Positions 3,900 through 57,085 of a stretch of 64,000 nucleotides of DNA are shown here, piece by piece; the first letter of the stretch is position 1, and each line of letters opens with the position of its first letter. The position numbers were made by a program, and so were the translations under genes. The notes under the pieces are model-generated. The model was not told where the DNA came from and did not search any database. It saw only the letters and a program-made list of their open reading frames with translations. The stretch comes from Monoplex corrugatus (taxonomy: Eukaryota; Mollusca; Gastropoda; Littorinimorpha; Ranellidae). The DNA lies in assembly GCA_030674185.1 (NCBI GenBank), contig JAPXFY010000013.1, positions 52,218,067 to 52,282,066 on the forward strand, given 5' to 3'.

Positions 3900-5216
3900 C
3901 GAGGGTACTTTCCAGTAGAGTGAGACCAACGAACTTATACGTCAAAGACTTACCGGCAAAAAAAAAATGATTCATTTCATCTGTTCGAAGCATTCACCTC
4001 CTGCTGCCACACACTTCTGCATTTGCTCGATCCACTGTAGAAATGCCGCTCTGTAGGCTTCTTTGGGTATATGTGACAGACACTGGAAAACCGCCGTTCC
4101 CAAGGCTGCTCGGCTCTTGAAACTTCTTTCTGCCAGTGATTTCTTCAGATGCGGAAATAGGTAAAAGTCACAGGGTGCAAGGTCTGGGAAGTAAGCAGGG
4201 TGTGGCAAAGTATAGATGTTCTCGGTTGCAAGACATTTTCGTACGAGCCTTGACTTGTCATGAAGAATCTTGATTCTTCTCATGCCTGCAGTCGGTCGGG
4301 AAGTTGCATAAAACTTCTTGATGTCAGACAGTACTGAGTCTCTGTAGAACTTTCCGGTGATGGTCTCTCCTTGTTTGCATGGTTTCTGTGGCACGATCCC
4401 CTTTGTGTTGAAAAAAATGGTGTATAACACTTTCTTTTGCGAACGTTGATGACGAGCGATATGAGGAGGAACCCCACCTTGAGGAATCCAGACCTTGTTC
4501 TGTGACTTTCTCCGAGGTTCATATATGTACACCCAGGTTTCGTCACCTGTCACAATTTTATCCAGCCTCTTATAGTAAATTTTCAGCATATCTTGAAAGG
4601 TACGTAACCTACCCCCCTTATTTTCTGGCGTCAAAATATGAGGGATCCATCTTGATGACACCTTCCTGTAGCCAATCTGATTTCTTAGGATCCTCGATGT
4701 AGTCGACAAATAAATGTCGAGACAATCAGCAATCTCTTCAAGGCTGACTCTTGAATCAGCATCAACCATTGCATTCACACTAGCCACTAACTTTTCATCG
4801 CACTTTTTGCTTTTTCGCATTTCCCCCCTGTGTCTTCAGTGCTGGCCTGGCCACTTGCAAAATGTTTTACCCATCTGAACACAGTTGCTTTCGAAGGAGC
4901 AGAAGGTTGTCCCAAAGCTCTCATGTCCGCAAGTATTTCGGATGCATTCTTTCCGAGGGCGACAAGTAGGCCTACCTTGATGTAGCTGCGATAATCGCTG
5001 TTGAAAACGCCATTTTCTTTGCCATTTTTCAAATCAGTCTCTGACAGGGCCTTGACATACACTGTCAGAACCGTAAGACGGATCAAAGATGAATAACGAA
5101 ATTTGGCACAAAATTACATCATAGAGTGACGTTTTCTGTGACATATTTTTCCATTTTCTGTAAATGCGTTTTCAAGCTATACAGACGTGGTCTCATTCTA
5201 TTGGAAATTACCCTCG
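3900..5216 (-). mobile_element. Mariner-type transposon with TIRs and TA target duplications
   Basis: Terminal inverted repeats start CGAGGGTACTTTCCAGTAGA on the left (from 3900) and CGAGGGTAATTTCCAATAGA read inward from the right (to 5216). They match at 26 of 29 positions. TA dinucleotides flank both sides (3898-3899, 5217-5218), the target duplication expected for Tc1/mariner. The length of 1,317 bp is normal for mariner. The transposase lies on the minus strand and is frameshifted, so this copy is probably dead but structurally complete. Confidence 0.95.
3972..5086 (-). pseudogene. Mariner transposase, frameshifted
   Basis: Two overlapping minus-strand frames make up one transposase. The N-terminal part (4787-5086) holds helix-turn-helix sequence (SAPSKATVFRWVKHFASG). 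The C-terminal part (3972-4820) has TGDETW (first catalytic Asp), HDKSR where the family has HDN (second Asp), and PDLAPCDFYLF (third Asp). The frames meet at a run of six G (plus-strand C run 4826-4831), the likely indel. Between the second and third Asp there are 29 residues, not the 34 of D,D34D mariners, which fits an in-frame loss of about five residues just after HD. The N-terminal frame has no convincing ATG start. Cut-and-paste activity from this copy is unlikely. Confidence 0.9.
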
Positions 5217-7387: not shown

Positions 7388-7459
7388 GCCGTGATAGTCT
7401 AGTGGTTAGGACCTCGCGTTGTGGCCGCGATAACCCAGGTTCGAATCCTGGTCACGGCA
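7388..7459 (+). tRNA. tRNA-His (GTG)
   Basis: All four arms fold by hand. The acceptor pairs GCCGTGA (7388-7394) with TCACGGC (7452-7458). The D stem is GTC/GAC. The anticodon stem TCGCG/CGCGA (7414-7418, 7426-7430) closes a loop with anticodon GTG (7421-7423). The T stem CCAGG/CCTGG closes the canonical loop TTCGAAT (7440-7446). A 3' discriminator A (7459) and a T-run starting at 7463, a Pol III terminator, follow. There is no intron and CCA is not encoded, as usual in eukaryotes. The perfect stems argue for a functional gene rather than a SINE head. Confidence 0.97.
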
Positions 7460-16183: not shown

Positions 16184-16371
16184 ACTCAGGTGGCTTGCTT
16201 AGGACCAAGATGGCTGGAGAAGATTCACAGGCGACAGGCAGTGAAGAAGATTAAGTAAGTGTGTGTGTGTGTGTGTGTTATCAATTAATGCTGTCTCCTG
16301 GATTCATCCATGTCCATTTTCTGCTGTTACTAGTGTTAGGTTGCTCAAATCAAGTATTTCCTGTTATGAAT

Positions 16372-17890: not shown

Positions 17891-18157
17891 GCCTTCATTG
17901 TCAGGGATGTTGTTGATGTTATCAGAGACTCTCTCGAAGAACTCTTCCTCTTCTTAAGAAAATCTGTAGTTGTGCACGGCTCAGATCATGGGTACAAGAA
18001 ATGTTACATCCATGAGAAAAAATAAAATTGATTTCAAGGAACTCAAAGTTGATTTGCTGTGTTCTTTAATGTCTTTACCAGTTGAAAACAAATTTTCTAG
18101 AGCAAGAGTTATTATATTTTGACTTTGACAGCCATTTTACGGCAAGACCTTACAAAT

Positions 18158-18527
18158 CTTCTGTTCATAACTTGGTGTCCAAAAGAAAATATCTGTATTA
18201 ATGCTGTTTTGAAAATAATGCATATAATAGCATTTACTCAACTTTAGTTGGTGTATCTAACTCTAAAATGCAAAATAAATGACAAAATTGAAAATCATTC
18301 TTATTTGATACATTAATGAAATGTGGACACCGTTATGAACAGAAGACATGACTTTAGCACTTTTTCTGAAGTGATGATAATTAATGATAAACAGATGTTT
18401 ATCTTTCCAAGTTAAACACTTTACATCAAAAAGAAAGCATGATCATCTCAATGTCAGATGTTTTGAAAAACAAAGTGCTGAAAGCTATTTATTTGATTTG
18501 TCTTCCGTACATAACTTGGACACCATC
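18158..18527. repeat. Palindromic motif copies (3' flank of the 18.6-23.9 kb gene)
   Basis: Three copies of TTCTGTTCATAAC or its reverse complement: 18159 forward, followed by TTGGTGTCC; 18331 reverse, preceded by GTGGACACC; 18502 forward-like, followed by TTGGACACC. The same motif makes the ~200-bp array at 24.28-25.31 kb, on the other side of the gene. Confidence 0.8.
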
Positions 18528-18576
18528 TGCACTCATAACAACAGACCAAAGCAAATGTGTTCAACCACCAAGAAGT

Positions 18577-18582
18577 TTTATT
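18577..18582 (-). promoter_or_regulatory. Polyadenylation signal AATAAA
   Basis: AATAAA on the minus strand lies 8 bases after the TGA stop (18591-18593) of the terminal exon, supporting that exon as the gene's 3' end. Confidence 0.6.
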
Positions 18583-18590
18583 GATAGATT

Positions 18591-18755
18591 TCAGAAAAAG
18601 TGTCTTCCTCTGCCATCAATTCTTGGAGGGGGCAAAATGTCCACAATTTCTTCCCACAAAACGATGAATTTTCGATCAATTGCAGGCAACACATAGTAAG
18701 AACCACTCTTGTCGAGGAACTGGACTTCTGCACCATGTTCTTGGAGTCCTTGAAT
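18591..18755 (-). CDS. Terminal exon of the 18.6-23.9 kb gene
   Basis: Acceptor TGCTGCAG, then 54 codons in phase 0: IQGLQEHGAEVQFLDKSG, SYYVLP, WEEIVDILPPPR and a TGA stop. Together with the preceding exon (TFIGL) this forms a small beta-rich module of the type 'FIGLV...VQFL.KSG.YYVLP', reminiscent of SH3/Tudor-like C-terminal modules (inference only). Composition and splice signals make it clearly coding. Confidence 0.75.
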   Translation of the reverse strand: MQGLQEHGAEVQFLDKSGSYYVLPAIDRKFIVLWEEIVDILPPPRIDGRGRHFF

Positions 18756-19161
18756 CTGCAGCATACAAGGCCATTGCTGTTAGCACACCGAAAAGAAATC
18801 CTTTCCTATAAAAATTAACAGTAAATCATTAATATTAAACTTATGATAATAATGATTCTAATATCTTCAAAAGTGAAGAAAAAAACTTGTCAAACTTGAC
18901 AGCACCAGGCATTTTCTTTAATATTCACCTGCATAGTTAATGGTTTTATTGAAAGAGATTGTAAAATTGCGAGAAAAGCCAATATATATACAAAACAGAA
19001 AAGAAATAGCTGACCACATAAATTATGATCTGAACACTAGGAATTTCATAACCTTTTAATGGTTGGACAAAACTGGAGTTGCCCATATGGTGAAATGTAA
19101 AATGATCGCATTCAGATTTCTTCACTCTCACACACACATTCAATCAAAATCATACTCTTAC

Positions 19162-19243
19162 CAGACCAATGAATGTCTTGGTCTTTGTCAGAGTCCTGCT
19201 TGCAGGAAGAACTTTGGCTCTGATGAAATCACCAAGTCGAGCC
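19162..19243 (-). CDS. Penultimate exon of the 18.6-23.9 kb gene
   Basis: Flanked by acceptor TGTGTTGCAG and donor GTAAGAGT. It encodes ARLGDFIRAKVLPASRTLTK then TKTFIGL. It joins in phase to the acidic exon upstream (AA plus G making Lys) and at a codon boundary to the terminal exon. Confidence 0.75.
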
Positions 19244-19541
19244 CTGCAACACACATAAGAATAAGAGTGACAAATGTTGAGTAGTACTGTACAGCTAATA
19301 AAGTTTTACACATTCGATAAGTTTATGCTTGTTTTGCCTTCATTTATTGATGAAATGTTTACTATTATGATCATGCTGGATTAAAGTTTGTTTAAACCAA
19401 TAGTTTAAAACAAAACATGGCTGAGTATTAGATGATTCCACAAGACAAGACTTCATTCTTGTGTGTAAGAATTAAGATCTTACTTAAATGTGCAATATGT
19501 TCAGGACAATTTTGCTGGCAAGTAAGTTTATCTGTACTCAC

Positions 19542-19862
19542 TTGGAAGACTTTCCTTCAGCGGATCCACACTGGGAGATGCTATGATCCACCTTTGTTGG
19601 CTGGGGCACCTCATCAGGTTGATCCGTCTCAGGTGGCTTGGAACTGTCAGGCTGATCCACTTCTGTTGGCTGGGGCATATCAGGCTGGTCCACCTCTGGA
19701 TGGGGCTCATCGTCAGGCTGGTCCTCCTTTGGCTCATTGTCAATCTGGTCCACCTCTGTTGGATGGGGGCTCATCATCCGGCTGGTCCATTTGTTTTGGA
19801 TGGGGCATGGTCTCACTTTCCGTTGGCTGGTCCATCTCGACATCATTGGCGGGGCAACAGTT
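19542..19862 (-). CDS. Acidic DQPD-repeat exon of the 18.6-23.9 kb gene
   Basis: Acceptor ATTATTACAG and donor GTGAGTAC bound an exon encoding about seven loose copies of a Pro/Asp-rich unit (PTEVDQPD, PETDQPD, HPEVDQPD). The unit is 10-14 residues and probably an unstructured linker. Near its 5' end the repeat reads in another frame (MDQPTESETMPHPKQMDQPD). A one-base indel, perhaps at a C run near 19765, has shifted it. The plus-strand Leu/Trp-rich frame here is a shadow. Confidence 0.65.
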
Positions 19863-21671
19863 CTGTAATAATATGATATACATATTGATGGGTGTAAACA
19901 TAATCAACAATAATCATTTTCATGAATCTAACATATGAGGCACTACTTGTATACTACTAATTGATGTCTTTTTTTTAAACTCTTCACTATTGATTATACA
20001 ATTCCGAGCATGCATTTGTTACGGTAACAGGAGAGCAATTGTGGCCATGTTTCCTGATCTATTATGATGCAGAGTGACAAATTTGTGCCCAAGAGTCAAA
20101 ATGCTTTAAGCAGCAAGATCCTGATCTATTGCGATGTAGCCTGCCCCTTTTTTTCAGAATGAAAATACTTTAAGCAGCAAGAGAAGACTACGTGTACAAA
20201 AAAAGTTCACTGTACAGACTATTTGCACACAAAGAACACACACAAATGTGTGTGTGTTGAAAGAGATATAAAAATAATTAGCTCACCCTTCATGATCAGG
20301 CACATCAGGATTTGCGACAGGAGATTCTGGCTGACCACCAGCAGCAATCCGTCGTCTTGTGGGTCTCAGCTCAGTCACTGTCCACTCTCCAACCAGATCC
20401 TCATTTAAGCATCGCCCATCATTTCTGCATCCATCGCAGAAACAGGAACGCTCCCTCACAGCATTGACGTTTGGCTGGATGCCTTTTATACAGTGCATCT
20501 GCTGTGTGTTTTTCAGTCGTTTGGTGTTTGTGTGGTCTGGTCTGTCCCTGTTTATTTCCTGTGAGTCGACAAAAATAAATCTGCGTTTGGTGTGAGAGTG
20601 GTCTACACCCTCTTGTGGCAGACTGAGCCTTTCACAGCAAACACGGAAAAAGTCATGAACTGAGAGGATGTGAGTCTGTCTTGCCAGAACTGCCCAGTTT
20701 ATGGACTTTTTCAGGACTCCTATTTCACGGTCACAGGGGCCTTTTCCATGCCTAACTTCCAAAGTAGTGCCGTTCAGCAGACACACCAAAATCCTGTGTT
20801 GCAAAAGAGCAGTCAACAAAGTTGATCCTGTTCTTGTACTGTGTCGGTGAGCCATCAGAAAACGACACAATACATGTGAAAGTCAAGCCATCTTGAAGCA
20901 GCAACTCCACAGACTTCCCAAGGAAATGTTGCACTGCGTGGTAGTCGTGCTTCATATCGTTGCTGATGAATATGATTGAGTCTGTGACCACAAACTCATC
21001 ACATTCCAGCCACTTGTATGAGGCAACCACTGGATGGATGGTTGTCTGGGTGTTGTTCCAGCGGCAGCCTTGTGGAGCATCTTGGGGCCGTGACGTATAA
21101 TTTTCTGCAAAGTCCAAGCAAAGAACTATTGTGTTCGCTGGCACAGCACTGGATATGTTCCGGTACTGCTGAAACTGCCACCATGCATTGAACAAATGGC
21201 GTGAAAATGTTGTGAGGTCTGTAACCAGGGCATCCGCCAGCTCCTCAAAAGTACCCTCCTTTTGAACTTTCATCATTCTGGTACTGGCGCTGTTGGTGAT
21301 TGCAACGTTTTCCCACTTGAACCAAGTGACAGAGGCAGTTTTGATGTCATCTCTGTCCAGGGCAGTCTGCAGATGCTCCTTCAGATGATGTGGTCCACAC
21401 TCTCCACATTGTCTATAAATGCAGGCTTTTTTTATACTCTTTACCCGTTTTTTTTGGACAAAGAGTCAGTCTGGATGCGCCATAGTGGTCCTGGATTTTC
21501 AACAAAGGAAAGCCTTCCAGGTGCATATTGACTACGTTGATTTTCAAGTCGATGTTAACACAGTATTCACAGAGGCATTCTCTGAATCTGTGTGTTGTGA
21601 AGGGCATAACATTTTTTGGCTTTAACTTCTTGAATGAAGAAAATGGAATTGATGGGCCATTTTGCTCATTG

Positions 21672-22727
21672 TAATAATAAATAATAATAATAATTACAAT
21701 ATTTATATAGCGCAAAATCTTGATAAAATCAAATCTAAGCGCTGAAGCAGACACACACGCAAGCACGCACGCACGCACACACACGCACGCACGCACACAC
21801 ACACACGCACGCACACGCACACACACACACACACACACGCATGGCTATAAATGGGGAGAAAGAATAAAACCAAGAATAAAACCAATGGAAAATTATAGAG
21901 AGCATAGCATATACAATTATATATTATAACCATGTGATTCCCTCCGAGCGGAGACAGGCTGCAGAGGGGGGGGGGGGGGGGGGGTTGAGTGAGGTTAGGA
22001 TTTTATGCGGAGGAGAAAAGGTGAGTTTTGAGAGCGGACTTGAAGGAGACAAAAGTAGGTTGCTGACGGACTGAGAGAGGAAGTTTGTTCCAGGAGAGTG
22101 GACCAGAAACAGAGAAGGCTCGTGGGCCATAGGTATTGAGCTTAGTGCGTGGAAAGCGAAAAGTCAGAGGATCGGAGGCAGAGCGGAGGGTACGTGAGGG
22201 AACATAGATCACAAGTAGGCTTGACAGGTAGTCGGGGGCTGCGTTATTGAGGCTTTTGTAGCACATGGTGTCTACTTTGTACTGTATGCGCTTTGATACA
22301 GGGAGCCAGTGAAGTTGTGCCAGGAGAGGAGATATGTGGTCAGCTTTTTTCTTTTTGAGTACAAGGCGTGCAGCATTGTTTTGAATGCGCTGTAGGATGT
22401 GAATGGTGGAGGCAGGAAGACCAGACAGGAGTGAATTGCAATAGTCAATGCGAGACATTATGAAGGAGAGAACGAGTTTTGCAGTTGTTTCGACAGAGAG
22501 ATACTTCCTGATCAGCCTTATACGATGGAGATGATAGTAGCAGGATCTGGCAGTTTGAGAAACAAAGTTGTTCATGGAGAGGGTAGAGTCAATGCAGACA
22601 CCAAGGTTTTTAGCTGAATCAGAAATTGGGACTGATGTGTTACATAATGGGAGAGAAAGAGGAGGCAGCTGAGAAAGTTTCTGACGGGTGCCAATGAGGA
22701 TAGCTTCTGTTTTGTCGTCATTAAGCT
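21672..22727 (-). mobile_element. CR1/L2-like LINE, 5'-truncated, copy 1
   Basis: Minus-strand insertion of about 1,056 bp. It has RT C-terminal sequence (LNDDKTEAILIGT near 22700, then the 22003-22575 frame with RSCYYHLHRIRLIRKYLS, DYCNSLLSGLP, NAARLVLKKKK, HWLPV). It ends in a 3' UTR with CA repeats, GCGCTATATAAATATTGTAA and (ATT)n. It matches copy 3 (45066-47609) at roughly 96 percent by eye over 22140-22258 against 45455-45575. There is no target duplication beyond 1 base. Confidence 0.9.
21966..21985. repeat. Homopolymer G20 in the LINE 3' UTR
   Basis: Twenty consecutive G, where LINE copy 3 has only six (45295-45300). It is either a slippage expansion or a sequencing artefact. It could form a G-quadruplex. 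Confidence 0.9.
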
Positions 22728-24274
22728 GAAGTACAGAGTATAAGCTGACTTCAGGGACACTTCCATCACTTTTCTTGGTTTTGCTATGCCATGTTTGATC
22801 ATGCTGCTTTGTGCATCTGGAAAGTCATGACTGACAGTCCCATTTTCAAAAAAGTTTTCAACTGCCTTCACTGTAGTGTCTGCGATTGCATCCTTTCGTA
22901 TTTTCCGTTTCTCCTCCCATCCAACCTCGCTCCAATTTGATGCTGAAACCGTTCTCCACAGTTTTCTGCTTGTTCCTATATGATAAGCAGCAGCTTTGTT
23001 TCTGGCCATCAGTGCTTGTGCATAGAGGCGTCGCTGTCGTAAGTCTTTGACTGAGCGCCGCATCTTCGACTCTGCCATCTGATTTTTTACGGCTTCTGCC
23101 ACTTCTGAGTCAAGTTCCAGTTTTCTTTTTTATCTGGGGCTCTGGATTCCGAGGGATGCATACTGTACAGCTTGCTTTGTTTTCGGAGACAGTGCTTGAA
23201 GTGCTGATTTGATGACTTCAACTCTGGTGTTGGTATTGGATGGCAGACTCCTCAAAAATTCTCTTTTGAAGCGACTTTTTGCCACTCGCGTAGATCCAGT
23301 TGATTTTGACTGACATCCAGTGCTACTGCTTGGGCCATGTGTGCATCTTTCAGGATACTGCTCCTCTCTGTTTGCTGGTGAAGATGGTGGAGTAGTCCAT
23401 GAATGTTCAGCTACGCATGGTATTTGTGGGCAATTGCGCTGTTTTTTGGCAGCATATTTCTCTCTTCTTTTTTTGTTGAGGGCCGATTTTTTCTGATGGC
23501 TGAGGCTGGCTCTGTACTTCTGTTTTTGTTCTCTGTTGATGCACCTTTTCTCTTCCAAGGATTTTCTTGTTTTCGGAACCTTGCTATTAGGTGTTTTACC
23601 TTCCTCCTTGAGTTTCTGCCTGTACTTTTGTTGCCTCTCAACCTCTGTTTTTCCCTGTTGCGCTGTGCAGCTTCTTCAGGTATATTTTTTCGATATGCCC
23701 GTAATCGTTTACATTCTTGCTCCCTATAAATGCTGTAAGCTTCTGGATTGGCCTTCAATCTTTCTCTGTGCTCCCTCGAATAATCCTTTTGAGTTTTCTT
23801 CCTTTTCTCAGGTATACCAACATCAGTATCTTGTACTTCAAGAAGCTTGGGCACCCTCCTTGGCCAAAGGTGGTGCTCTTTATCCATTCTGTCCGCTACA
23901 TGAAGTAAGACACAAATAGATATAATAAAAACCTACTCAAAATCATTTAATTTTTAATCATTACTTACCTGTGCACAACCAAAGTTAACAGTTATGATTC
24001 AAACATGAATAAGACATTATATTAAAATCTGAACGCAGACATCGACGTGTCAATGAGAGCAAGGAGATATGCACTTGTAACTAAGTGTACCAGACAAAAT
24101 GACATGAATTTTGTCTGTCAAAGCTTCATTCTACAGAGTAATGTTTACCATTATTCATAAGACAATAAGCCTATTTAAAAAATAATGATAGCAATGATAA
24201 CAACAACAACAATGATAATAATAATAACAATAACAAATAAATAAACAAGGGAAAAAAAACTGTCAAGTGTTTTT

Positions 24275-25312
24275 TTTTTGTTATGAACAGAAGAAATGGA
24301 AAATAAATAACAGACTCTTTTGATCTTTAAACTGTTACAGTGCCAAGAAAATTAGAAATATTTTTAATAAGTGACTAACATAAAACTAAATCCATTTTGT
24401 TCCCTCTTATGTGCATTAAAAGTTGTCTTATATCAGCTACAGTATGTTCATAACTGGGACACAACAGAATGTGTGTCCTTGTTATGAACAGAAAACAGGA
24501 AGATAATATTAAGAGCAAAATTGTGTTTTAAACATTAAACTATACATCTTTTATTCATTATCATGACAGATCAGACAAATTATTCATAGCAATATTAACT
24601 ATGTTCAGAAAGCATCTATAAACAGCAACATTCTTCAGTTCATAACATTGGACACAGCTGATTATTGCAGGACTGGGTGTCCTTGTTATGAACGGAAGAT
24701 AAAGCAACATTTACTGTATACACCTAAACAATTAGTTCAAGTTGGTAACTTCATGATAACCATTAATTTTGATTGACATAATTATATTTTATTCTGTTAC
24801 CAGTTTTTCTTTCTATCACAAGACTTGACTGTAACAAAACACTTCTGTTCATAACATAACTTCATTGGAGAAGACTACAGTAGTGTCCAAGTTATGCACA
24901 CAATATGAATTTATACATGTTACATTACAGTAACTTATGCCAACATAAAACTATACAAAAATGAACAGATGAATTAAAAGTATTGAAATGTGTTGTCCAA
25001 AATTATGTAATAAAAACAACGTCTGCATGACCTAGGTACTTCTGTTCATAACAAAGCACACGATTTTGATCACTGAATATGGCGTCTTTGTGATGAACAC
25101 AAGATAAATTCACTTTCATAACTTAGCATTCTATTTGAAGCTGTATAATTAAAAGAGCAACAATATTCATTGTCATGAACTGAAGTCGCCGATTTCTCTT
25201 CATATGATCAAACAGCTGTGTGCTAGAAGCGCTATCGACAGTTTCATTCATAACTGAAGACACAACTGTTGGACTTGCATCGTAGTCCTTGTTATGAACA
25301 GAAGAAAAAAAC
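24275..25312. repeat. ~200-bp array with internal palindrome (5' flank of the 18.6-23.9 kb gene)
   Basis: GTTATGAACAGAAG or close variants recur at about 24280, 24480, 24683, 24891, 25090 and 25288, giving a spacing of 198-208 bp. From the second copy on, the inverted partner TTCTGTTCATAAC precedes it by 35-50 bp, usually with GGACAC or GTGTCC in between. Each unit can thus form a hairpin. One more diverged copy sits at 26020-26043 (GGACACGACGG then TTATGAACGGAAG). The array lies just upstream of the gene's start. Confidence 0.85.
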
Positions 25313-26128
25313 AGAAAAGCTCTGAAATCAAATCCATTATGACATGGTGCTATATTATTTTATATTAAAGTCATAAAGATTTATTTACTGGACATCATCA
25401 TGTGGCACACAAGCTCGACGAAAACAAACACCCACTTTATTTAACAATAAAACGGAGAGCACGGATTTTTGAAAATTTGTTTACGATGAACAGATATGCA
25501 ATATAACATGCAATCATCAGATAAAAACGATAAAAACTAAATAAAACTTCAGTGAAATCATAGTTAAAATAACACTTACCTCTGATACAATGATCGGCAA
25601 TTTTGATTTAGCGCTATTGATGAAATTGCTTGATGACCCTCCGTTTCTTACGTTTGTCGCGCGCTTTCAGAATGACCGGACACCAAATGAAACTCGGCTC
25701 GTGACGAAGCAATTCAAAGTGGAAAAGCAAAAACCTGTGACGTAGTTATCATATAACAAGTTGTTGTGACGTAGAGCACAATTTCTCTCTTTACACGAGA
25801 ATGTTGCTCTTAGTACAGTGTTGTATTCCGTTCGTTACGAACTGGACGCGATACACGGTTGGTGAAATCAAAGTTTAATTTCAGCAATATTATCAATCTG
25901 CCGCCGTTTTAAAGATTACACACCAATAAATTATATCATAATTTGTAATAATGGTGTGATTTGCGTTTCCAATTTCTATACTAATGTCGGATGTGATGTT
26001 TCGATTTCACAGAAAGGATCGGACACGACGGTTTATGAACGGAAGCAAAAAATTATGGCGCTGTTAATCGCATGTCAAAGCTTTAGGAACTTTCCACATT
26101 GCTGATGCGGGTTTGTTGATGTTTTATC
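25313..26128. other. Non-coding stretch between array and piggyBac
   Basis: No reading frame of note. It contains GACCGGACACC (25673-25683) and the motif copy at 26020-26043, so the far end of the presumed 18-26 kb element probably lies here. Its terminal repeat was not identified. Confidence 0.4.
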
Positions 26129-26668
26129 TTAACCCTATTCGTACCAAGTAAAAAAGGGGAAAAACACTCCTCCCGCCCAAGTAATTTTTTGTTTTTGACA
26201 TGAAAAGTTGGGTTACCCAAGGAAAAAAATTGTAAAAAAAAAAGTAGTTGTTTGTTTGCTCTGAAATTTTGAATGTTTGTGGCAAAATGTTTGTTTCATA
26301 TGTTACAGCCTTTACAAATCATAAAAACTAAAATTCTTGCAATTCTAATTATTGAAATCAACAAAACAAAACAAAACAAAAACAGAAGCAAGTGAGAAAC
26401 AACACAATACAATACAAACAGTTTCTAACCTGGTTTCTTGTGAAGCCCATAGTAATCCATACTAATCCACAGAAGATTATAATCCAAATTGAAAAGAATT
26501 CCACACAGAAAACACACTGTTCTTGGCAGAAATTGTCACTCTACAGCTGACGCGAAAGAAACAAATTTCTCAAAGTTTGTTGAAAGTCCACACAGCAAGC
26601 ACAATTTACACACTACAAGAAAAAAAGAAAAAAAGCTATGTACACATCTGACTATCCTTTTTCTGTTT

Positions 26669-28958
26669 TCAGCTGTCTCCTCCCTCATCCACCCTGGGTT
26701 TTTTGAAGGCCACATTGGTGTGGTAGCGCTCAAAACATTCCCCAAGGCAGAGTCCCTTGTCGCACTCCCGACACTCATATCTGGATTCCTTTCTCCTCTG
26801 ATACCCCTTCCCCTTCTCTTTTCTGACAGAGCACACCACACACACTCTGGTTGGAAACTGCTTGGTGGCTGTTGCAGGCACTTTAGTAAGGAAGTGCTTT
26901 TCCTTCAATCTTGCTGGAGGGTCAGAGGGCCTACGCTTGAAGGCTTTTGGTGGTGGTGCGTCTGCCAGCATAGCACTTATCAGATCCATGGTGAATTGAA
27001 GTTGGCTTGTTTTCTTTCCTGGATTGTTCATCTTGTAGATGAGGTAGGCTTGCACTTTGGCCAAATGCAGCAAATGAAAACAAGCCCTCTTCCACCATTT
27101 CCAGGTTTTTCTGTTGAATGAATAGTACTGAATATTCTGGTCAAACTGATCCACCCCATTCATGTTGTTGTTGTATTGGTGGACCAGCTCGGGGATCATG
27201 ATGGGTTGGTTAGTTTCCTTGGCCTTCTTGCCACTGTCAATCAGCTTGGCAGTGCTGCAGCTGGATAGCAGGGTGACCATTTTCTTATCATGATATTTGA
27301 CCACATGGAGAGCAGCACTGGTGTCCTTTGGGTCATCTTTCACATGGCGTGATGTTTGCCTTCATCTGCAGAGCCTGACCCTTAGGTATCTTCTGTTCTC
27401 CAAGCTGCCTGGGCAAACCTCGCCTGTCCTTGCGGATGGTACCAGTGAGAGTTGTGCCTTTTTCTCTCAGATCAGTGAACAGATCAAAAGATGAAAAAAA
27501 ACTGTCAATAAAAATAGTGTGTCCCTTCCCATGAAAATCCTCTGACAGTCGTTTGACGACATTCGGCCCATGGTCTTTCTCTCTTTTATCCCCCTTTCTT
27601 CCAGAATAAATTTCGAAGCGACTGACATAAGATGAATCACTCTCACAGCACATGTACATCTTGATGCCGTACCTTATAGGTTTGCTGGGGATGAACTGAC
27701 GAAATCCAACACGCCCACGCCAAGGCATCATGGACTCATCGATCGCCAGGTTCTGCTTCGGGCTGTAAAGTGAAGCAAACTTCTCTTGCAGCTTGGTGAC
27801 AAGAGGTCTTATTTTGAACAGCTTATCATGAGCTGGATCATCTCTTGGCAAATTCTGTGTGTTATCATTGAGATGAAATGCCATCAGAATTGCTTCAAAG
27901 CGGTTCCTGCTCATAGTGTTGCTGAAGATGGGTGTTTCGATGATGGGGTTTGTGCTCCAGTAGCTCTTGATGTCCGGCTTGTCCACCAGGCCCATGGTGA
28001 ACAACAAACCCAGAAACACTTTCAGCTCCTGGGATGTGAGCTCCTTCCAGTCAGCAAGCAGATTATGAGGCTTGATGGCCTCTCCAAGGCTTGCTTTGTA
28101 CTGGGCAGCATACAAATTGGTTTGCTGCACCATCTCATCCATCAGGTCTTCACCGACGAACAGATTGAAATACTCCCAAGGAGAGGCATCAGGACTGATA
28201 TCCACTTGAATACCAGGCTCACCTGTTACACACACACACACACAAAACATTTTTATTTTCAAGAAAGGTAAGTGAAACCATGGTCTGCACTATCAGCACC
28301 TGGAACAAAACTATGCGATCATGATGGTGTGTGTGTATGTGTGTGTGTTGTGTACAGTCTGTGTATACTTGCATGTGTGAGTGTGGGTGGGTGAATGTGT
28401 GTATGTTTACATCTAAACTCAGCCAAGTGTGATTTGAGTACTGATAATAGACCAGTTCTGCTGTAAAATGCATTATTGTTGACAACAATTTCGGTGTACT
28501 GAAACCATTTCATACTGACACGCCCACCTCACACACCCACTTGGACACGTCGGCACACACATCCCACAAAGTGACAAACACACAAATCACATGAAGCTTT
28601 GCTTACCTGTGAACTCAGGTGTATGAGGTGGAACATCAATGCCTTCTTCTGTCCAGAGAATGTCAGCCTGCTGCCTTTGAAGCTGGGGTGCACCTCTTCT
28701 GGTCGGTCTTGACAACGGACCACGACCACGACCCCTTCTGCTCCCCCCTCTAACATTCACGCCGGTCCCTCGTGAAGTCGATGGCTGTGGTTCTAATTCA
28801 AAAGCCACATCAGCCACTTCACTGCCTATTTCTGACGATTCACTGGGCGCATACTCGTCAGAACTCTCCTCAAATTCTTCATGTTCCGATTCGCTATCTG
28901 AATCGAGAACAACTTCATCTTCACGAACTTTGGGGGGTCGAGAAACTCGCTTCGACAT
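26669..28958 (-). pseudogene. piggyBac transposase, two exons, one frameshift
   Basis: Exon 1 (28607-28958) encodes an acidic N-terminus (DSDSESEHEEFEESSDEYAP) and an RG-rich stretch. A 384-bp intron (28223-28606) has donor GTAAGC and an acceptor ending TAACAG. Exon 2 carries NLAIDESMMPWRGR (first Asp), FIDSFFSS (second Asp) and, after a frameshift near 27355, NNNMNGVDQFDQN (third Asp). The C-terminal cysteine domain follows: CVVCSVRKEK, YECRECDKGLCLGECFERYH. All three catalytic Asp are present, so one indel separates this from an intact piggyBac protein. The frame also reads through the intron's 3' end (VCVCVTGEPG), but the spliced form joins EFTG to EPGIQ correctly. Confidence 0.9.
28319..28420. 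repeat. GT-rich tract in the transposase intron
   Basis: Degenerate (GT)n inside the 28223-28606 intron. The flanking short frames are not genes. Confidence 0.6.
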
Positions 28959-29959
28959 CTTCTTCGGCGATCAAACTACGTCGAACAAACGTAAACACGT
29001 TGCAGAGTGATCTCCCTTCACAGCTCATTACTATTCATGAGCTAATGGGTGGTTATCTGCACAGCAGAGGTACAGAACTGAAAGTACCTAGTGGAAACGA
29101 GAGTCTCTCGTTTGCGGTCTGCCGTGACGTCATACGGAAAACGAGAAACTCTCGTTTGCGGTACAAAATGTGTTAAGTGTTTAACATTTAAAAGTTTCTT
29201 GTGACTAGTTTTAATACCTAAAAAAATGTTTTGAATGCAGTCACTGGCGATGTAACAAAATGGAAGTCGCTTTGGGGGCCGAATTGGCAACAACAACAAA
29301 AACGTAATAAATCAATCGCTTCGGTTTTTTTTATGTTTTTTTGCTTTTGCTTACTAGGCCATTCATGCATGCATAAGGGTGTGTTTAAATCACGTGAAGA
29401 TGAAACGTGGTTGTTGAGAAAGTCACGTTTTTGTGATTCACGTGTTGAATGTGCCCATGATCTGAGCCGTGCACAGTTGTAAACAGATCTGTCTGGCAGG
29501 CCTGATTGAAGTCCAACCACCATCAGTTCATTTTGGAATGTCATTATCATTGATGTCTCCAACATAATTTGGATGCTCCAGCCAGCCAGTGTTATTAATG
29601 TCACAAATGTCCCATCCCCTTGCTCCTGCTCAAGTCTGAGATGTGTCTGTCTGACTTGCAGTCACAGCAAGCTTTGATACTAATACAGTTCCACACCACC
29701 TTCTGTCATTATCACTGCTATTTTCACTTTCTTGGGTTGAAAAAGACACGTCAACGACGCCTGTTTGATGATGGTCTTCCTGTTTGAGTCCCCTCCTAGT
29801 TCTCCAGGAAGCCATCTGTCACACTCTACCTGAAATTCACAGGAGACACAGCATTCTCTCCTTTGTTTTCAGTCTTCACAGTAGATGGTGTAGGTGTTGA
29901 CAAAGACCACCTCACACTGTATGGTACCATTTTGAAGACTTGTGTGGATATTATGTGTG

Positions 29960-31122: not shown

Positions 31123-31737
31123 CTGTGTAAGTTGGTTCTTAAGCGTCCATCAGTTCTTTCACTTTCCACAAGGGATACTTGGCATTTATTTTGATGAATG
31201 GGAATGTAAGTTAGTTTATACTACATGTTTGATTATGATGATGCTGATGATATACACTCATCATTTCCTTTTGCTCTCTGGGCATCTTTGAGTTGATACA
31301 CATTCCATGGTCCAGTGATGTCTACCCTGGTGCACTCCTTTCCCAAGCCCCCATCACAGGCTTAGCTAAAAGTAAAACAGCTGTGCTCTCTGTAGGAAAT
31401 GATATATGGCTGAATGGCTGAAACACAAGAGTGTTGCTGCCTGGTCTTCTGAAGAACTTTCAAGTGTTGTGTCCGATTTATTCTGTCTCTGATGATCTTC
31501 TCTTTCTGGACATGAAAGAAAGTCTTCTGTAGTGGGAATGGTCATCATTGTGTTGTGGCCGGTTGTACTCTTTCTGGCAGAAATCAAACAGTTCTCCCCG
31601 AGAATCTATGTCTGCACATGTATTCTTGATCTGCAGATCAAGTGATTTTCTTTAGTGTTCCAAATTCCTTGTCACGGGTTTTTTTCCCACAACAAGAGCC
31701 GAAAATGTGTCTTTCTGCAGCCACCCCAAAATCATTT

Positions 31738-32960
31738 TCAAAGTATGAGAGGTCTGCAAAAGTGATCTTTGTATTGGGCTGGTGCCTCATCGGAAAAGAT
31801 GATAATTTTGTTGAATTCCAGGTGTTGATGGTCTTTTAGGTGTTGCAACATGAGGCCATTGAAGTAATGAACTGCATGCTTGTTGTTTTTAGAGTCATCT
31901 GACACAAACACCATGGCCTCTGTCGTCCTTTGCTGGCAACCTTCTATTGGACAGTTGTATGATGCCACATTTGGATAAAGTGTCACATGGGTGTGCTCCT
32001 TGTACTTTATCTTGCATTTGAAATTCTCTGCAAAATCCTGGCAGATGACAACAGCACCAGTTGGAACATTTTTGGAAACAAGAGTCATACTATTGACCGT
32101 GCCAGCTTGCATCAAAAAGATGTTTTGAAACAGGTTTAACCTCTTGCGCAAGCTCACTAACAAATTCAGCAGCCTTGACAATTTTCTGGGTCATGCGTTT
32201 CTTGGTGACTCCTTGTGTCCCCATCGCTTGAAGGTAATAACTTTGTCAGAGTCAGCATCAGCTGTGATTTCTGTACAGTGGCATCATTCTGCAGTTGTGG
32301 CAGATTCTCTGAAGGCATTCTCTTTTGTTCGGCCAGATGTTCCCTTTGGGCAAAGTGTTGCACGCGAGAGGTCATACTTATCAACAAAAGTGAGTTCACA
32401 CTGCCTGTGTGATCCTGCAAACTGCTGGATGGTTTCCAAATGCAGATCGCTGTTGGTGCAGTATATGCACATGTAGTCACTGCTTCTGTTGGATGTTGAT
32501 GGCATGACATTTGTTGGGCGCATCTGTGCAAACATTGCACATGAGAGGTGAATATCTGGGTTTTCTTCAGTGAAGAGGTGGAATGCAGATTTAATTGACC
32601 TCTCCATTACTTTTTGGCTAATCAGATACTTGTGTTTTTTTTTTGTTTTTGTTTTGTTTTGTTTTTACTCCTCTTGCATCTGGCAGTGCTCTGGAGATAT
32701 CAGGCTGCCTGTAAAATTCATCATTCCTGCACTGTAAGTCCTCGCTGAAGGCATCTTTTCTTTTCTTCCTGGTATTAAGCTGGGAAAGGTCAAACGCCTC
32801 TTTGGCTCTTTTCAGCAGTTTCAAACCAAGGCCAGTTTCCTTCTTTAACCCTCTTAGCACTGACCTAATTTTTTTTGTGTTGACCACATACTGGCCTAAA
32901 TTCTGAACTTCAGAGCTGTCGTTGGGTAGGATTAGTAAAGAGCTCCTCTGCTGAACAAAA
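31738..32960 (-). pseudogene. Second copy of the DFAEN/QYK transposase-like family, truncated
   Basis: In order on the minus strand: VLRGLKKETGLGLKLLKRAK, FSEDLQCRNDEFYRQPDISR, MERSIKSAFHLFTEENPDIH, MRPTNVMPSTS...YMCIYCTNSD, VDKYDLSRATLCPK, VICQDFAENF, YPNVASYNCP, FVSDDSKNNKHAVHYF, IIFSDEAPAQYKD. These align with the 18.6-23.9 kb gene (MEVSLKSAYTLYF, LKPKNVMPF, CLCEYC, LCLDFAEN, HPVVASYKW, FISNDMKHDYHAVQHF, FSDGSPTQYKNR). The frame shifts near 32600, 32300 and 32170 and breaks off after QYK, losing the HGKGPCD part and everything downstream. It is clearly paralogous but a different subfamily, and dead. Confidence 0.8.
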
Positions 32961-35900
32961 TCATTGAAAGCTGAGATTCCACACTGTTCGCATTGAAGGA
33001 GGTCTTCCATAACTTCTGGTGGTGCTGGCTTGCCAGATGAAAGACAGAATAAAGCCTCTCTGTCATCAGTGTCAAATGACTGGAAAAATTCTGGAAAGAT
33101 TCCAACACTTTTTGCACATCTTGCTCTGTCTTTCTTATTTCAGATGGCCTGGTATCTTTGTGGGATGTTTCCTCTTCATCCGTCATTCCTGCCAACTCCA
33201 TTGCTGCAGCAAGAAAACTGCCTTCATGTGCCGTGTCACACACCATCTGTAGTAGGCAGCAAAATTTCTACTGAACCCAATGATACCACCATGGGACTTT
33301 GCATGTCTGTTTATTGTTTGTTCAATTGTTTGATCCACAGCATTGCGAGAAGTAGCTATGTCAGATCTTGACACACTGAGTCCTCCATCCTGAAGAAGTT
33401 TGTCAGCCCCTGGATGAGTGTGTTTTATGTTCAAGAGAGAAATGAAGTAGACACTAAGATACTTGGCATAATTCATGTGGTCCATCGCAAACAACAACGG
33501 ACACATCTCTTGCAGGCAAGTAAGATGTAAATCCACATTGTTCTCTTTCGTTGCCCTCAGGAACCTCAAAACAAGCCAAATCATGTCCATGTAGTAAAGC
33601 CACAACTGTGCTGTTTTGCCAAGCAGGCCATCTCTTACTTTGACCTTGAAGAGGGAATACTGTTCATACAGCTGTTGGCATGCACCATTTTCCACAACAG
33701 ATTGCAGCTTGTCCTTACCAGGATTGAACAGAGTAGCCACTGCATTCTGCACTTCTTGAAGTTCTTCACCTTCACCTGTAGCCAGAAATTTGATAAGCAG
33801 TTGCCTCTCTAATGCTTCAAGGACTATTTGTGTACTCGAAGAGCACGATTGTATTGCTTGCCAGCAAACACTTACTCAATTGACCCACTTGCACAGATAG
33901 CAGACTGAATGACTATTTAATAAGTAAGACCAGTTCCCCTCATCAGTTTGCCAACAGCGCCAAGGAAAGAGCAGATTGTGTGGAAGCTTCCCAGTCTGAC
34001 AAAGATGTCTTGGAAGAGATTGTTCTGCCACACCAAGTTATACGCTTTCCTCGCTACTGCTAAGTCAAATGTAACTAATGTTACATCTTGTCCCACTTGC
34101 TTTGTTGCTGTCTGTGACACTTTGAGGACATGCTGGACTGTGGAATTTTCCGTGATGGGGTGGTGGATGGGTGGCATGTAGTCAACAGTAGACTGCATCT
34201 TTTCTATGCCTTCTTCTCCTGTGAGAGACACCCATCCTCCCCATCCAGGCACCAGTTGATTTCCATCTTTGGCCTCAAATCTGGAGAAAATCCACCAAAA
34301 GTCAGCAACTTTAGCTTTGTAGACTGCCTCTGGGTTTGAGAAATGAGTGTCGACAACATTCAGCTTGGGTTCTGCCTTTTCTTTTGCAAAGCAGGGTGGT
34401 ACGTTTCTTGGTTCATACTGCACAGAGCATTGGTGGTTTTGAGGAGCAGGAGGTAGTTCTGTTTGAGACGGAACTGTGTCATGCACTGTGTCTCCTGTCA
34501 CCTCTTGAATAACTATGCCATGAGTGGAGTGGGTGGTGTCAGCTCCTGAAAGGGTTTCTTCGTTCAGGTCAAAGTTATCCCAGCAGAAATGAATCACCTT
34601 GTTCTGTCCCAAACTCACGTTGAAGGCAAAAGACTAGCACACTGATGTACAGAGTTGGCCATAGCAGTCTCAAGTCGTACAATTGTTTTGTATCCAGCAA
34701 CGTGCCCAAAACGATTCAAGAGACTTAGAACTTCAGAGCTACCAGTAACATGTCTGACAGACATTCCAAGTAGAAGATGTTTGGGCATTTTCCACTTTCC
34801 CCCTGTCAAAGAGTAGCATATGTCCTGGCCAATGGAGGATGCTAATCTGGTGGTTTTGTTTTGCTCCACAGTAGTACTCTTTCCAGACAGCAGATTTTGG
34901 AGAAAGTCTGTGAGAATAGCTGGAGGATGGACAGCATCAGACTGAAGGTACTCTGCAGATGGAGGCCAAGGCATGTCAGGTGCAGCTCTAAAAGCATCCA
35001 TGATGTGTCGATGAAGGACATATGCAGATTCCTCATGTCGCCTTTCTTCTGAAGCTGCTGATACAAACGCTGTCTCAACTGCCTGACCTCGGGCAAGTTC
35101 GTCACAATAAACAAGTTCACTACGATGGTTTGGAGCCCAGAATTTTATTCTAAAGCCAAAACGTTTCATTATCTTTTCTTTCAGTTTGTAAGTCTTGTAT
35201 CCTGGGTTGTAGAAGTCAGGGGAATGTTGTTGCATGTATCCACAGTACTTCTCCCTCAGCATGGTCATTCTCTCCACCTGTGCACCTCTGATCAAGGCAT
35301 TTTCAATGTACTCACATATGTACTCAAATGCCCTCTCATGTGCCTGTAGCTGCTCAGCAGATGTCTGGCCTGTGGATGTTTCAGCATGCCTGCCTTCATA
35401 TCTCACATAGTCTTTCCTGCAACCCTCATGATAGTGAGCTTCACGTGCTACCAGATGTACATCTTGATAATGAGTGAAAACGTCATCATGCTTAGTTTTT
35501 GCTGCATCCTTTATAGAATGTTCTTGGTGACACATTGTACAAGTTTGTCAAAACATGCAACTCCTTTTGAAGCTTTCTTCTTGAATTTTTTGTTGCAAAA
35601 AATGCATCTGTCATTTGGAAGCAATGGGCCTGATGAAACAACAGCAGTCCTCTTTGGTTTAGATGGTCCTGCAACTTCTTCACTCTGTCTCATGTTTCCT
35701 TTTCCTGGCAAATTTCACATTGGTAAACCGTGCATAACAGCTTCTGTGATAACCATGGTGAGTAAAGTCCATGTCTTCTGGAATACAATCACAAATCTGA
35801 TCTCGTCTATGACATGCTACATTTGAAGCACGTCTCAAATGGAGAGACTTCTGGATAGTTTTTTTTACTTTCTTCAGTTAGTGGGGTTATAGTCTTCTCT

Positions 35901-45575: not shown

Positions 45576-46592
45576 CATAGCTGCCAACCCTCCCGAATTT
45601 TTCGGGAATGTCCCGAAATGTGTGAGCTGCCCGGAAAATCCGGTAAATCGATGAAAATTCCCGAATTTTAAATTTTCGATTTTGATATTTTATCCGGTTA
45701 GCTCTGTTTTCGTCAGAACGCGGTAAAAAGACAGCTGCGTGAAAGCGAAACTTCCGTCACACATGCGCGTGCGCAGAGGGCCATGTAAACAGCTCCTGCG
45801 CGCCAGCTTTCTTGCACAATGGCTTCGAAGAAGACAGACGCGAAAGCTGTAAAAGCGAAAGCAAAAGTGAAGTTTTCGAAACATTATGCGGAAACGTACG
45901 ACTTCATCACAGCCTCGGACAAAGGAGACACCTTTGCTTTCTGTAAATCGTGCCGATGCGACATAAACATCGGTCATGGTGGCAAGAAAGACATCGACCT
46001 GCATGCCTCCTCAGTGAAGCACCGAAACTATCGGCAGAGTACAGCGTTTGTTCAGCCAAGTCCGAAAAAACAAGACGGACTTCAGAGGATCATTGCAATC
46101 ATCCACGCTCAGTGCAATGATGGTTGCCAAAGCCAATATGATTGGACCTTGCTACAAGCAAGTTTTCTCTCCTGACTTCTTGAGAAAGGCCAAGTCTGCT
46201 ACTGTGACAGCGCTTAAAGGCAAGGAGAAAGAGAAGGGAGACAAAGACATGGAACAAGACGAAGCCTGCAGTTCTTCCCATTCCAAGTAGATCTAAACTT
46301 GAAGAGGTGAGGGGACTTGGGAGTTTAGAGTGAAAACTTCTTGAATAAAAAAAATATCTGAACCTTTTACACAAGAGATTTAGACTAGCAGAATTTGAAG
46401 GAAAGCTTACAATACATGCTTTGTTACATTTTTCAGTTTGAAATGCATGGAAATACCAGTTTAGCATCTTCATTTGATAGAAAATCTTCAGCTTCTGGGG
46501 GCGTTGCCCCTGGACCCCACCGGGGGCCTTCCGTGGCCCCCGGACCCCCGCCTCTTGTCAGGAATTTTTTTTCAGGAAAGTTGGCAGCTATG
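45576..46592 (+). mobile_element. BED-finger (hAT-like) TIR element inserted in the LINE
   Basis: The terminal repeats are CATAGCTGCCAAC and its exact reverse complement (46580-46592). The target duplication is CTTTTG (45570-45575 and 46593-46598), or 7 bp if the preceding G is counted. The uninterrupted site is visible in LINE copy 1 (22246-22258). The left end CATAGCTGCCAACCC and the GGGGGCGTTGCCCCTGGACC block (46497-46516) tie it to the MITE at 14012-14344. At 1,017 bp it is probably an internally deleted derivative. Confidence 0.9.
45819..46290 (+). CDS. BED-type zinc-finger protein remnant of the TIR element
   Basis: From ATG 45819: MASKKTDAKAVKAKAKVKFS, KHYAETYDFITASDKGDTFA, FCKSCRCDINIGHGGKKDID then LHASSVKH. 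C..C followed by H....H matches BED-like fingers found at the N-terminus of hAT-type transposases, where they bind transposon ends. After about residue 85 the frame drifts, and a second frame (46048-46290) continues with VFSPDFLRKAKSATVTALKG and a charged tail. The catalytic RNase-H and dimerisation regions are missing. It might act as a DNA-binding repressor if expressed (inference). Confidence 0.65.
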
Positions 46593-47855
46593 CTTTTGTA
46601 GCACATGGTGTCTAGTTTGTACTGTATGCGCTTTGATACATGGAGCCAGTGAAGTTGTGCCAGGAGAGGAGATATGTGGTCAGCTTTTTTCTTTTTGAGT
46701 ACAAGGCGTGCAGCATTGTTTTGAATGCGCTGTAGGATGTGAATGGTGGAGGCAGGAAGACCAGACAGGAATGAATTGCAATAGTCAATGCGAGACATTA
46801 TGAAGGAGAGAACGAGTTTTGCAGTTGTTTCCACAGAGAGATACTTCCTGATCAGGCTTATACGATGGAGGTGATAGTAGCAAGATCTGGCAGTTTGAGA
46901 AACAAAGTTGCTCATGGAGAGGGTAGAGTCAATGCAGACACCAAGGTTTTTAGCTGAATCAGAAATTGGGACTGATGTGTTACATAATGGGAGAGAAAGA
47001 GGAGGCAGCTGAGAAAGTTTCTGACGGGTGCCAATGAGGATAGCTTCTGTCTTGTCGTCATTAAGCTGAAGTTTGTTGAACGTCATCCAGTTCTTAATGT
47101 CCGAGTAACACTCAGTGGTGCGAGTCAAGAGGCGCTGTATATTGTCTGGTGTGTCACTGTCTAGAAGTTGGGTGTCATCAGCATAGAAGTGGTGTTTTAT
47201 AGAGTGGGAGTTGATGATGGTGGACAGGGGGTAGGTGTAAAGAGTGAAAAGAACAGGGCCAAGGACAGATCCTTGTGGAACACCACAGGTCAGGCATGCA
47301 GGTTGAGAGTAAGTGCCATTAATGAGACCAGTTTGTTTTCTGTTTGACAGATATGAAGTGAACCAGGAGAGAGCAATGTCAGAGATGCCAAAAGTATGAT
47401 GAAGTCTAGAAAGGAGAATACCATGATCAGTGGTATCAAAGGCTGCAGACAGATCAAGGAGTGTGAGGAGAGAGACTTTGCCAGTATCAGTTGCAAGGAG
47501 GAGATTGTTGAGATTGTGTAGCAGGGCAGTTTCAGTGCTATGGCACTGGCGGTAGGCTGACTGGAAAGGATTGAGAAGATTGTTGGCAGACAGGTGAGAG
47601 ATGATAACTCAGGAGTTTATGTGAACATATTTTTAATAGGTAAATCAACCATTCTGCACAGAAATCAGTCAGTGAATAGGCGATAGAAAACGCATATAAT
47701 TTTGGTCTGGGCATGCATAGTTTGGTCACAATGTTGAATTCCAGAATCTCTTCTGATACTTCAGTAGTTGGCAACAATTTATGGCAATATTAGTTCTGTT
47801 TACAAAAGAGGTAAGAATGTAAATAAAAACTTGTTCCTGTAATTGTGTATTTTAA

Positions 47856-53088: not shown

Positions 53089-55087
53089 CTTGAAATCGCA
53101 AAAACAACAACAAACTTCGTAAACAAATTGAATTTCCCACCTGGGCCTAGATCTGATGTTTTGAAACAAGCCGAAGAATAACCATTTCCGGCGGTTCACC
53201 TTCCGCAAAACAAATAGTGCTTATTGTGCGCCGCTAAAACTAAAGAAACACGTTCGGAAACAAACATTATAGCTTTTCAATGTTTTGTTTGTATCATTAC
53301 AAATCATTGACATGTAATTTTAGAGATTAACAAAATGCATTTATAAATCAGTAAATCAGTCCGTGTTCCTACGCCACGCAGTAAAAGTAGTCCTCAGCCA
53401 GCGAAGTGTCTGACCACTGCCCGAACTGGCCTCCGCTAGCGAAGTCAGAGGCTGAGCTGTGCGCGTCCTGTTTTATAGTAGTCCTTGACCAGAACATATA
53501 TTTCCACCATTTTTTTGCCTTGGTGGCAACCCCATAGTAGGATCGCGTTTTCCTTTTCTGATGATGGTGATATTGCCGGTCTTGTTGGCTGTGGATAGAA
53601 CACTGACTTGGCGCTTCTTTTCACACCAAGTCACTGCCATCATTCTGCCATTTTTCATTTTTTTCATTTCTCCACTCTCCTTCAGCTTGCAGGTCTTTAT
53701 GGGGACAGGAAGGCCCTGGCGGTTCAGGCGGACAGTCCCACAAGCATCGGTCTTGTTTGCCAGCAGAGTCTCCAACAAATCCACGGAAGTGAAAAAATTA
53801 TCAAAATATACGTGGTGGTTTCTGCCATAGTAGCCCTGTATACAAGATCAGTGACTGCACGTGTGCCTAGGGGTAAATTCTGCTGGGCCATTTCCTTACC
53901 AGTGTAGATATTGAAATCTACGAGGTAGAATGACTCGGAGTCTGCCAGTGCCCATGCCTCGACGCCCCATTTTGTCGGCTTGGATGGTATATACTGCAGG
54001 AAAGAGCATCTCCCCTTGAATTTTATCATGGCTTCATCCACACTGATGTTTTTGTGTGGCAGGTAATGTGCAGAAAACTTGGCCTTTGCATTGTCAAGTA
54101 TAGGGCAAACCTTGTGTAGCTTGTCATGGTTGGGGCTGGTGCGTGGTGGGTTGGTGGTTTTGTCGTTGAGGTGGATGTACTGAGTGAGTTTTTCATATCT
54201 GCCTCTGGTCATGACTTCAGCAATAACTGGATTTCTTAGCTCTCTCCTCTTACTCCAATAGCATCGATAGTTTGGGAGCTGGTTGACGCCCATCAGCAGT
54301 AGAATGCCCAGGTAGGCGGCTATCTCCTCTTCAAAAGTTGGAGCAAAGTTGACAGCTCCCTGCTGAATAGCATACCGATTTGTTTCCACAGCAATGATAG
54401 CAAGCAAAAACGAGGGAAAAGTTGAAGAAAGTACTCCACTGGCTTTGCATCTAAATGTAGAGGCACTGTAGGGCCCACAAAATGCCCAAAAGGTGAAGGA
54501 TCGGGATCGACGACTGTGTCCGACCACTCAGCAGGTGAAACTTCAGGTGAGGAATCACCAGAAAGCTCTAAATCGTAATCGATCGTCTGCTCTGACGACC
54601 CACTGCTTTCAACACTCACATTACTCTGTTGATCTTCGCCCAATCCTATTTCTCTTTCATTGCTCAATTCATCATTGAAATCATCATAATCCTCATCGTT
54701 GATAACTCGACAAGCGGCCATCTTGATGAAAAAATTCACTTCCAAAAACTCCGAACAAAATCGACCAAAATGCAAAAGCAGATGAATTGGCGCGAACGCA
54801 TGGTAAACAAACGGAAAGCAGAACGCTTTACGGCAGTCGTTAACCGATTTTCACGACACTGAAGAGCCCCAGCCTCCTTAGTAACAGCTCTGTTTAATGT
54901 ATGTCAGATGTAGCGGTTCGGGCATGGCGGCACTAGCGGATACGCGCGGTTGAAGACGTTAAGAGTTAATGTGTGTTAGCCCTGATATGGCTCTAGAAGC
55001 TGGCTGGGCTATAAGCAATATGAACATGAACATGGATGGTGACATGAGCACTAAGTTCTGTCATGTAGATTACTGTGCGTTGCTTAA

Positions 55088-57080: not shown

Positions 57081-57085
57081 ATTTA

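Follow-up and report, generated by a model that had tools for sequence, protein, structure and literature searches.

A probable dead copy of a cut-and-paste DNA transposon with spaced subterminal site arrays in the gastropod Monoplex corrugatus

We analysed a 64,000-nt stretch of the Monoplex corrugatus genome (GCA_030674185.1, contig JAPXFY010000013.1, 52,218,067-52,282,066, forward strand), here called the window, which carries at 17971..29475 an element of 11,505 bp whose ends were read from other genomic copies and whose gene lies on the minus strand. The element contains a broken transposase gene (18591..23887, minus strand), arrays of a repeated motif on both sides of that gene, and two nested insertions, a piggyBac transposon and a fragment of a long interspersed nuclear element (LINE). 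It measures 11.5 kb as found, about 8.5 kb with the LINE only and about 7.4 kb without either insertion. At its left end stands a 26-bp terminal inverted repeat (TGTGCACGGCTCAGATCATGGGTACA, 17971..17996, plus strand), matched at 25 of 26 bases by the right repeat (29450..29475, minus strand); the consensus form, TGTGCAYGGCTCAGATCATGGGTACA, is found at the right end of the copy on C14 (locus L010). Target site duplications of GT lie directly outside the two repeats (17969..17970 and 29476..29477). Among the five copies with both ends read, the flush flanks match over 2 bp in four (GT, TA, TG and CA), with a chance probability of about 1e-4, and at no other length from 1 to 10 bp in any of the five.

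Six other copies begin at the equivalent of 17971 (L009-L012, L015 and the C2 copy in L020), beyond which the flanks diverge outward, and five copies reach a common right end at 29474-29475. The first-pass annotation had placed the ends at 18158 and 26045, giving 7.9 kb, or 6.8 kb without the LINE. The comparison of copies shows those ends to be wrong: the motif is subterminal, not terminal, and the right end was missed at first because it is hidden by the nested piggyBac. Ends at the motif (18158 with 24293, 25304 or 26045) were dropped after the real ends had been found; the pair 18158/24293 gave one flush 4-bp match, AAAT, where 0.09 was expected in 16 pairs, and would split the array. The piggyBac occupies 3,040 bp between two TTAA (26133..29172, minus strand) and matches DDE_Tnp_1_7 with E 2.6e-81; its transposase frame switches near 27.35 kb, where two frames overlap. 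The window reads TTAA-CCCTATT at 26132 and the element resumes at 29173, while other copies continue beyond 26132, five of them (L009, L010, L013, L014, L019) lacking the piggyBac and running uninterrupted there. The LINE fragment, 5'-truncated and on the minus strand, lies inside the transposase gene at 21670..22740 (borders approximate), where similarity to the gene breaks off and returns. It is 92% identical over 170 amino acids to the LINE at 46.4-47.6 kb, and no target duplication was identified for it.

The transposase gene is disrupted by frameshifts near 23.64, 21.43 and 20.75 kb, a stop at 23130-23132 and the LINE insertion. The catalytic part with the first two aspartates (LDFAENYT, FSDGSPTQYKNR) lies at 20755..21465 and its continuation, with HGKGPCD (third aspartate) and a C-terminal cysteine cluster, at 20286..20753; spliced 3' exons follow at about 19880-19545, 19245-19165 and 18765-18591, all on the minus strand. 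The exon at 19541-19880 is a proline/aspartate-rich tandem repeat, and in several relatives the same C-terminal part is followed by low-complexity repeats of other kinds. The catalytic triad is DDD: among 53 aligned relatives, D421 and D549 occur in all and D508 in 52, the remaining one having a gap there. Structure comparison with VIA-align predicts an integrase fold like that of retroviral integrase, Mos1 and TnsB, with 8-16% identity where the sequences align. This comparison, not Foldseek, is the basis for the fold assignment; Foldseek was weak, with one match under E 1e-3 (NurA) and none in other runs; hAT, RAG/Transib and MULE structures are absent among the VIA rows listed, which excludes nothing. 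Thus, by sequence and predicted structure, the gene product is a DDD-type, integrase-fold transposase with predicted catalysis.

The protein and its relatives share no convincing family in Pfam or NCBIfam. A sequence search of the PDB gave nothing convincing, only weak matches to the basic N-terminus, one of them Helraiser at E 0.27, and none of the 10 matches listed from the protein database is a near-identical copy (top 69%). A profile search of proteins, in which part of the candidates were scored, added 8 further proteins but did not lead to a named superfamily. Neither relatives nor the exact motif turned up in prokaryotic genome contigs or viral contigs, and plasmids yielded no relatives. 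An intact relative is P0002 from Littorina saxatilis. One family member, P0053, comes from a metagenome bin named Sedimenticola and probably represents host contamination.

The repeated motif has a core, GTTATGAACAGAAGA, with GGTGTCC frequently two bases ahead in aligned copies; the consensus is approximately GKGTCC-NN-GTTATGAACAGAAGA; three copies lie on one side of the transposase gene and 12-13 on the other. The left subterminal array (18158..18516) has sites at 18159 (-), 18332 (+) and 18503 (-), about 190, 360 and 530 bp inward of the left end. The large array, within 24280..25304, has plus sites at 24280, 24481, 24685, 24891, 25090 and 25291, minus sites at 24442, 24634, 24843, 25040 and 25242 (degenerate), and an extra plus site at 25172; a lone diverged plus site follows at 26032..26045, about 390 bp from the right end after discounting the piggyBac. 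Leaving out 25172, the 11 copies of the large array alternate strictly + - + - and form five inverted pairs at a pitch of about 200 bp. Distances between plus copies are 201, 204, 206, 199 and 201 bp (202 +/- 3), a regularity matched by 0 of 200,000 random placements, and facing copies are separated by 134-147 bp of AT-rich sequence. Most of 42 spacer comparisons, including downstream spacers, are at shuffle level, the top z values being 3.0, 3.2 and 3.9, and adjacent window spacers in the same orientation show no resemblance (z -0.2 to 1.5). Conserved hairpins on the five pairs are unlikely, with fold z values against shuffles of -5.8, -7.9, -2.9, -0.3 and -1.4.

Allowing up to two mismatches, GTTATGAACAGAA occurs 18 times in the 64 kb where 3.17 are expected, a count reached in 0 of 100 shuffles, and with the GTGTCC part (up to three mismatches) there are 7 matches in the window, all inside the two clusters, with 0 expected. 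A weight matrix built from the 24.28-25.30 kb array alone gives the copies at 18.16-18.51 kb the top three ranks for the remainder of the window, so their placement on both sides is not circular. These results bear out the first-pass claim of copies both downstream and upstream of the gene. Its further claim that the motif is confined to these surroundings holds for 15 of the 18 matches (18159-26044) but not for a near-match away from the clusters at 61235, nor for one at 16363 that scores close to it. GTGTCC or GGACAC, said to adjoin most copies, is exact beside 9 of 16 aligned copies and carries one or two changes beside 4, but is lacking at 3. The site at 26.03 kb is weak by itself, ranking fourth with a 14-bp matrix and 873rd with a matrix including the flank, but a GTGATGAACGGAAG-like site is recognisable at its position in all five other element copies read there. 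Across the 3.018-Gb assembly, the motif with up to three mismatches is found 153 times and a reversed control pattern 216 times; because its count is below that of the control, the motif is no widespread satellite, the outcome that would have spoken against the annotation. Ten of the 22 listed genome matches with up to two mismatches sit in the window element or its copies.

We fetched 23 genomic motif places, of which 7 are copies of the element, one is a relative on C30 and 15 are unrelated. The copies were seven of the nine places fetched first, are 89-97% identical to the window element in their main blocks, and carry sites on both sides in six cases, the C27 copy being read on the left only. 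In L009, L010, L011, L013 and L014, the sequence jumps from window position 19129 to 24934, and this shared junction is read from the sequence as one deletion that then spread; the junction in L012 differs. The deleted copies keep left sites (in L013 the third only; in L014 an insertion interrupts the first). Within the parts read, their right sides retain two pairs together with the extra site and the lone site, the 25090 site being largely lost in L010. Recognisable transposase sequence remains in just one of the seven, the C27 copy (L015), with 247 bp of gene at 94.7%; its right end was not found in L018. Support for the expectation that other gene copies would carry the motif therefore comes from the window, in part from C27, and from C30; the seven copies have sites in the regions read. 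No other gene copies without the motif came to light.

The C30 locus is the one relative among 16 non-copy places fetched. Over matched segments of 59 and 155 amino acids its transposase shares 52-56% identity with P0001, and at the DNA level alignment to the window is limited to 37 bp of the terminal repeat. Next to the terminal repeat at 1360172 stand three sites of alternating orientation, at distances of 211, 394 and 562 bp, and on the other side of the repeat there are five inverted pairs and then a lone site, as in the window. Specifically, this array has minus sites at 1360658, 1360851, 1361044, 1361225 and 1361437 and plus sites at 1360688, 1360891, 1361081, 1361275 and 1361498, with a pair spacing of 181-223 bp. 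Over 28.9 kb, 8 matches score above 13 and all fall inside a 1.8-kb stretch, whereas eleven other loci fetched have 18 in 101 kb. With sites masked, the C30 spacers align to those of the window no better than shuffles do. A terminal-repeat-like match at 1366458 may be the right end, the end-to-end architecture being unproven.

Taken together, the locus probably represents a cut-and-paste DNA transposon with introns, dead in this copy, whose arrays would be bound by its transposase. Terminal inverted repeats, target duplication, dispersed copies and a DDE/D transposase, the marks of the cut-and-paste DDE/D class, are all present, and the seven copies, the C30 relative and the DDD transposase sustain the first-pass view, in which subterminal arrays surround the nuclease-like gene of a large DNA transposon. 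Because site, pairing, number and pitch recur while spacers vary freely, the arrays point to protein binding under a distance constraint, and the pitch looks held by selection. Since sites occur to either side of the gene and are retained by copies that have lost it, the transposase would be the natural binder. It would contact the GTTATGAACAGAAG sites, probably via its basic or zinc-binding N-terminal regions, and dimers would sit on each inverted pair. Loading would be unequal, one end having three sites and the opposite end five pairs and the lone site, and this inequality would recruit and pair the two element ends, after which the DDD domain would cut at TGTGCA and insert with a 2-bp stagger. 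In the simplest reading, the pitch of about 200 bp would place one site pair per nucleosome repeat or fixed looping unit. We regard as rather doubtful the fuller proposal of an undescribed animal superfamily, defined by DDD, TGTGCA and the 2-bp duplication, in which five pairs act as a nucleosome-repeat ruler and transpososome assembly takes place on chromatin instead of naked ends. The site arrays, with distances seemingly kept and intervening sequence free, make end-finding by a transposase in chromatin directly testable. Our reading also gives a large animal protein family left uncharacterized in databases, with hosts among molluscs, echinoderms, hemichordates, hagfish and an eel, a likely mechanism, ends and cis sites.

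Several observations weigh against this interpretation. The C2 copy lacks the 2-bp duplication, and the deleted copies retain only two of the five pairs; short arrays may thus suffice for movement by a helper transposase. Motif columns are no better conserved among copies than the rest (0.972 versus 0.980; 0.967 versus 0.976), which is expected for dead copies but offers no support either. Spacer GC content of 0.25-0.34 disfavours nucleosomes on the spacers, and AT-rich spacers together with the deleted copies argue against a strict nucleosome-pitch requirement. On C30, several plus copies have scores of just 7-11 and were identified from their position, and the arrays flank the terminal repeat on opposite sides; the N- and C-termini of the gene are on opposite strands with the repeat between them (L022, C30:1355500-1365400), and the locus may be an inverted element or two overlapping or inserted copies. 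Finally, no motif array is visible at a second, strongly decayed member of the transposase family in the window (31275..33166, minus strand), which is about 25-36% identical and lacks the HGKG residues.

The strongest alternative concerns classification: that the element falls into a superfamily that already has a name and a place in Repbase, for example Sola, is a serious possibility, though we rate it below an even chance. Among named superfamilies, Sola comes closest in triad and size, with DDD transposases, most elements of 2-9 kb and animal hosts according to PMC10741241. Compared by description, it differs in its 4-bp duplications (PMC10741241; for Sola2, PMC3627910), a length found in none of our five copies, whereas 2 bp is found in four. 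We think it unlikely that the sites are instead bound by a host factor, serving the transposase gene as promoter, enhancer or nucleosome-positioning array. The nucleosome-length pitch would suit such a role, as would the position of the large array, which either closely precedes the coding start or falls within a first intron (candidate donors at 25582 and 23971), but three sites lie past the 3' end of the gene near the opposite terminus, and gene-less copies spread yet kept sites on both sides. Less probable still is that a 200-bp unit was duplicated in tandem long ago, its spacers then decaying and the pitch surviving as a functionless relic. Decay would need to have spared sites and distances alone, adjacent spacers are unlike, and C30 has five pairs at a like pitch with spacers that do not align to those of the window, even though the pitch is regular and the few spacer comparisons at z 3.0-3.9 are what such a history might leave. 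A motif arising by chance or from a gene-independent satellite would account for the 15 unrelated places, among which are three single-orientation clusters of weak matches in other repeats on C1 and C17, but is untenable given the genome-wide counts, the copies with sites on both sides and the C30 relative, the unrelated clusters having neither terminal repeat, transposase nor inverted pairs.

Elsewhere in the window, a long reading region without a Pfam match adjoins the decayed second family member at 33.2-35.5 kb (minus strand). Other mobile-element remains are a mariner-like (Transposase_1) fragment at 3975-4835, LINE reverse transcriptase fragments at 46436-47608 and 57082-57747, P-element-like fragments at 50312-53220 with a THAP domain and a sub-threshold match to a TNP-like GTP-binding insertion domain, a fragment of another piggyBac transposase at 53727-54527 and a Mutator-like transposase fragment at 62014-62469. 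A tRNA-His gene (anticodon GTG) lies at 7388-7459. Among the fetched loci, L034 (C1:9561000-9570900) and L035 (C1:102664500-102674000) each hold 8-10 weak motif matches in one orientation without element homology, several of those in L035 inside a tandem array of a 36-bp unit.

Compared with other known systems, the element combines familiar traits differently. hAT elements make 8-bp target duplications, a length found in none of the five copies, and no BED finger or hAT dimerisation domain is among the Pfam families matched by the 53 relatives (E 0.1). Hermes, a hAT element, resembles ours in its asymmetric subterminal sites, some in quasi-palindromic pairs, bound there by BED fingers, but its sites are 4-bp AAGT/AAGC near the tips (PMC10368747) and ours are 14-25 bp at a pitch of about 200 bp. 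KolobokP, which occurs in molluscs and other animals (PMC9587614), is likewise a large DDD/E transposon, whereas here we find a 2-bp duplication, no long terminal direct repeats and no TTAA target. The flanks of the five copies show no TTAA duplication, the TTAA at 26129 belonging to the nested piggyBac; the longest direct repeat at 17.5-26.5 kb is 44 nt among the 20 of 32 families listed, not the roughly 450 or 660 bp of KolobokP, and homology between copies stops at the inverted repeats. Nor do the duplications GT, TA, TG and CA fit the TA of Tc1/mariner. Judged by titles and abstract openings, none of the papers listed describes the family, and passages of PMC10294476 and PMC4455052 contain no description of it. 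The first-pass label of a new transposon is unproven at superfamily level, Repbase lying outside the comparison; there is a fair chance that the element represents an unnamed superfamily within cut-and-paste DNA transposons. CACTA (En/Spm) elements also carry unequal subterminal arrays of transposase sites in both orientations, but with a short crowded motif and CACTA termini, where ours has spaced pairs and TGTGCA termini. Retroviral termini start with TG, as those of the element do, and the likeness to retroviral integrase, Mos1 and TnsB lies in the predicted catalytic fold, while the other domains differ. The arrays resemble a natural case in which the distance between sites is kept and the intervening sequence is not.

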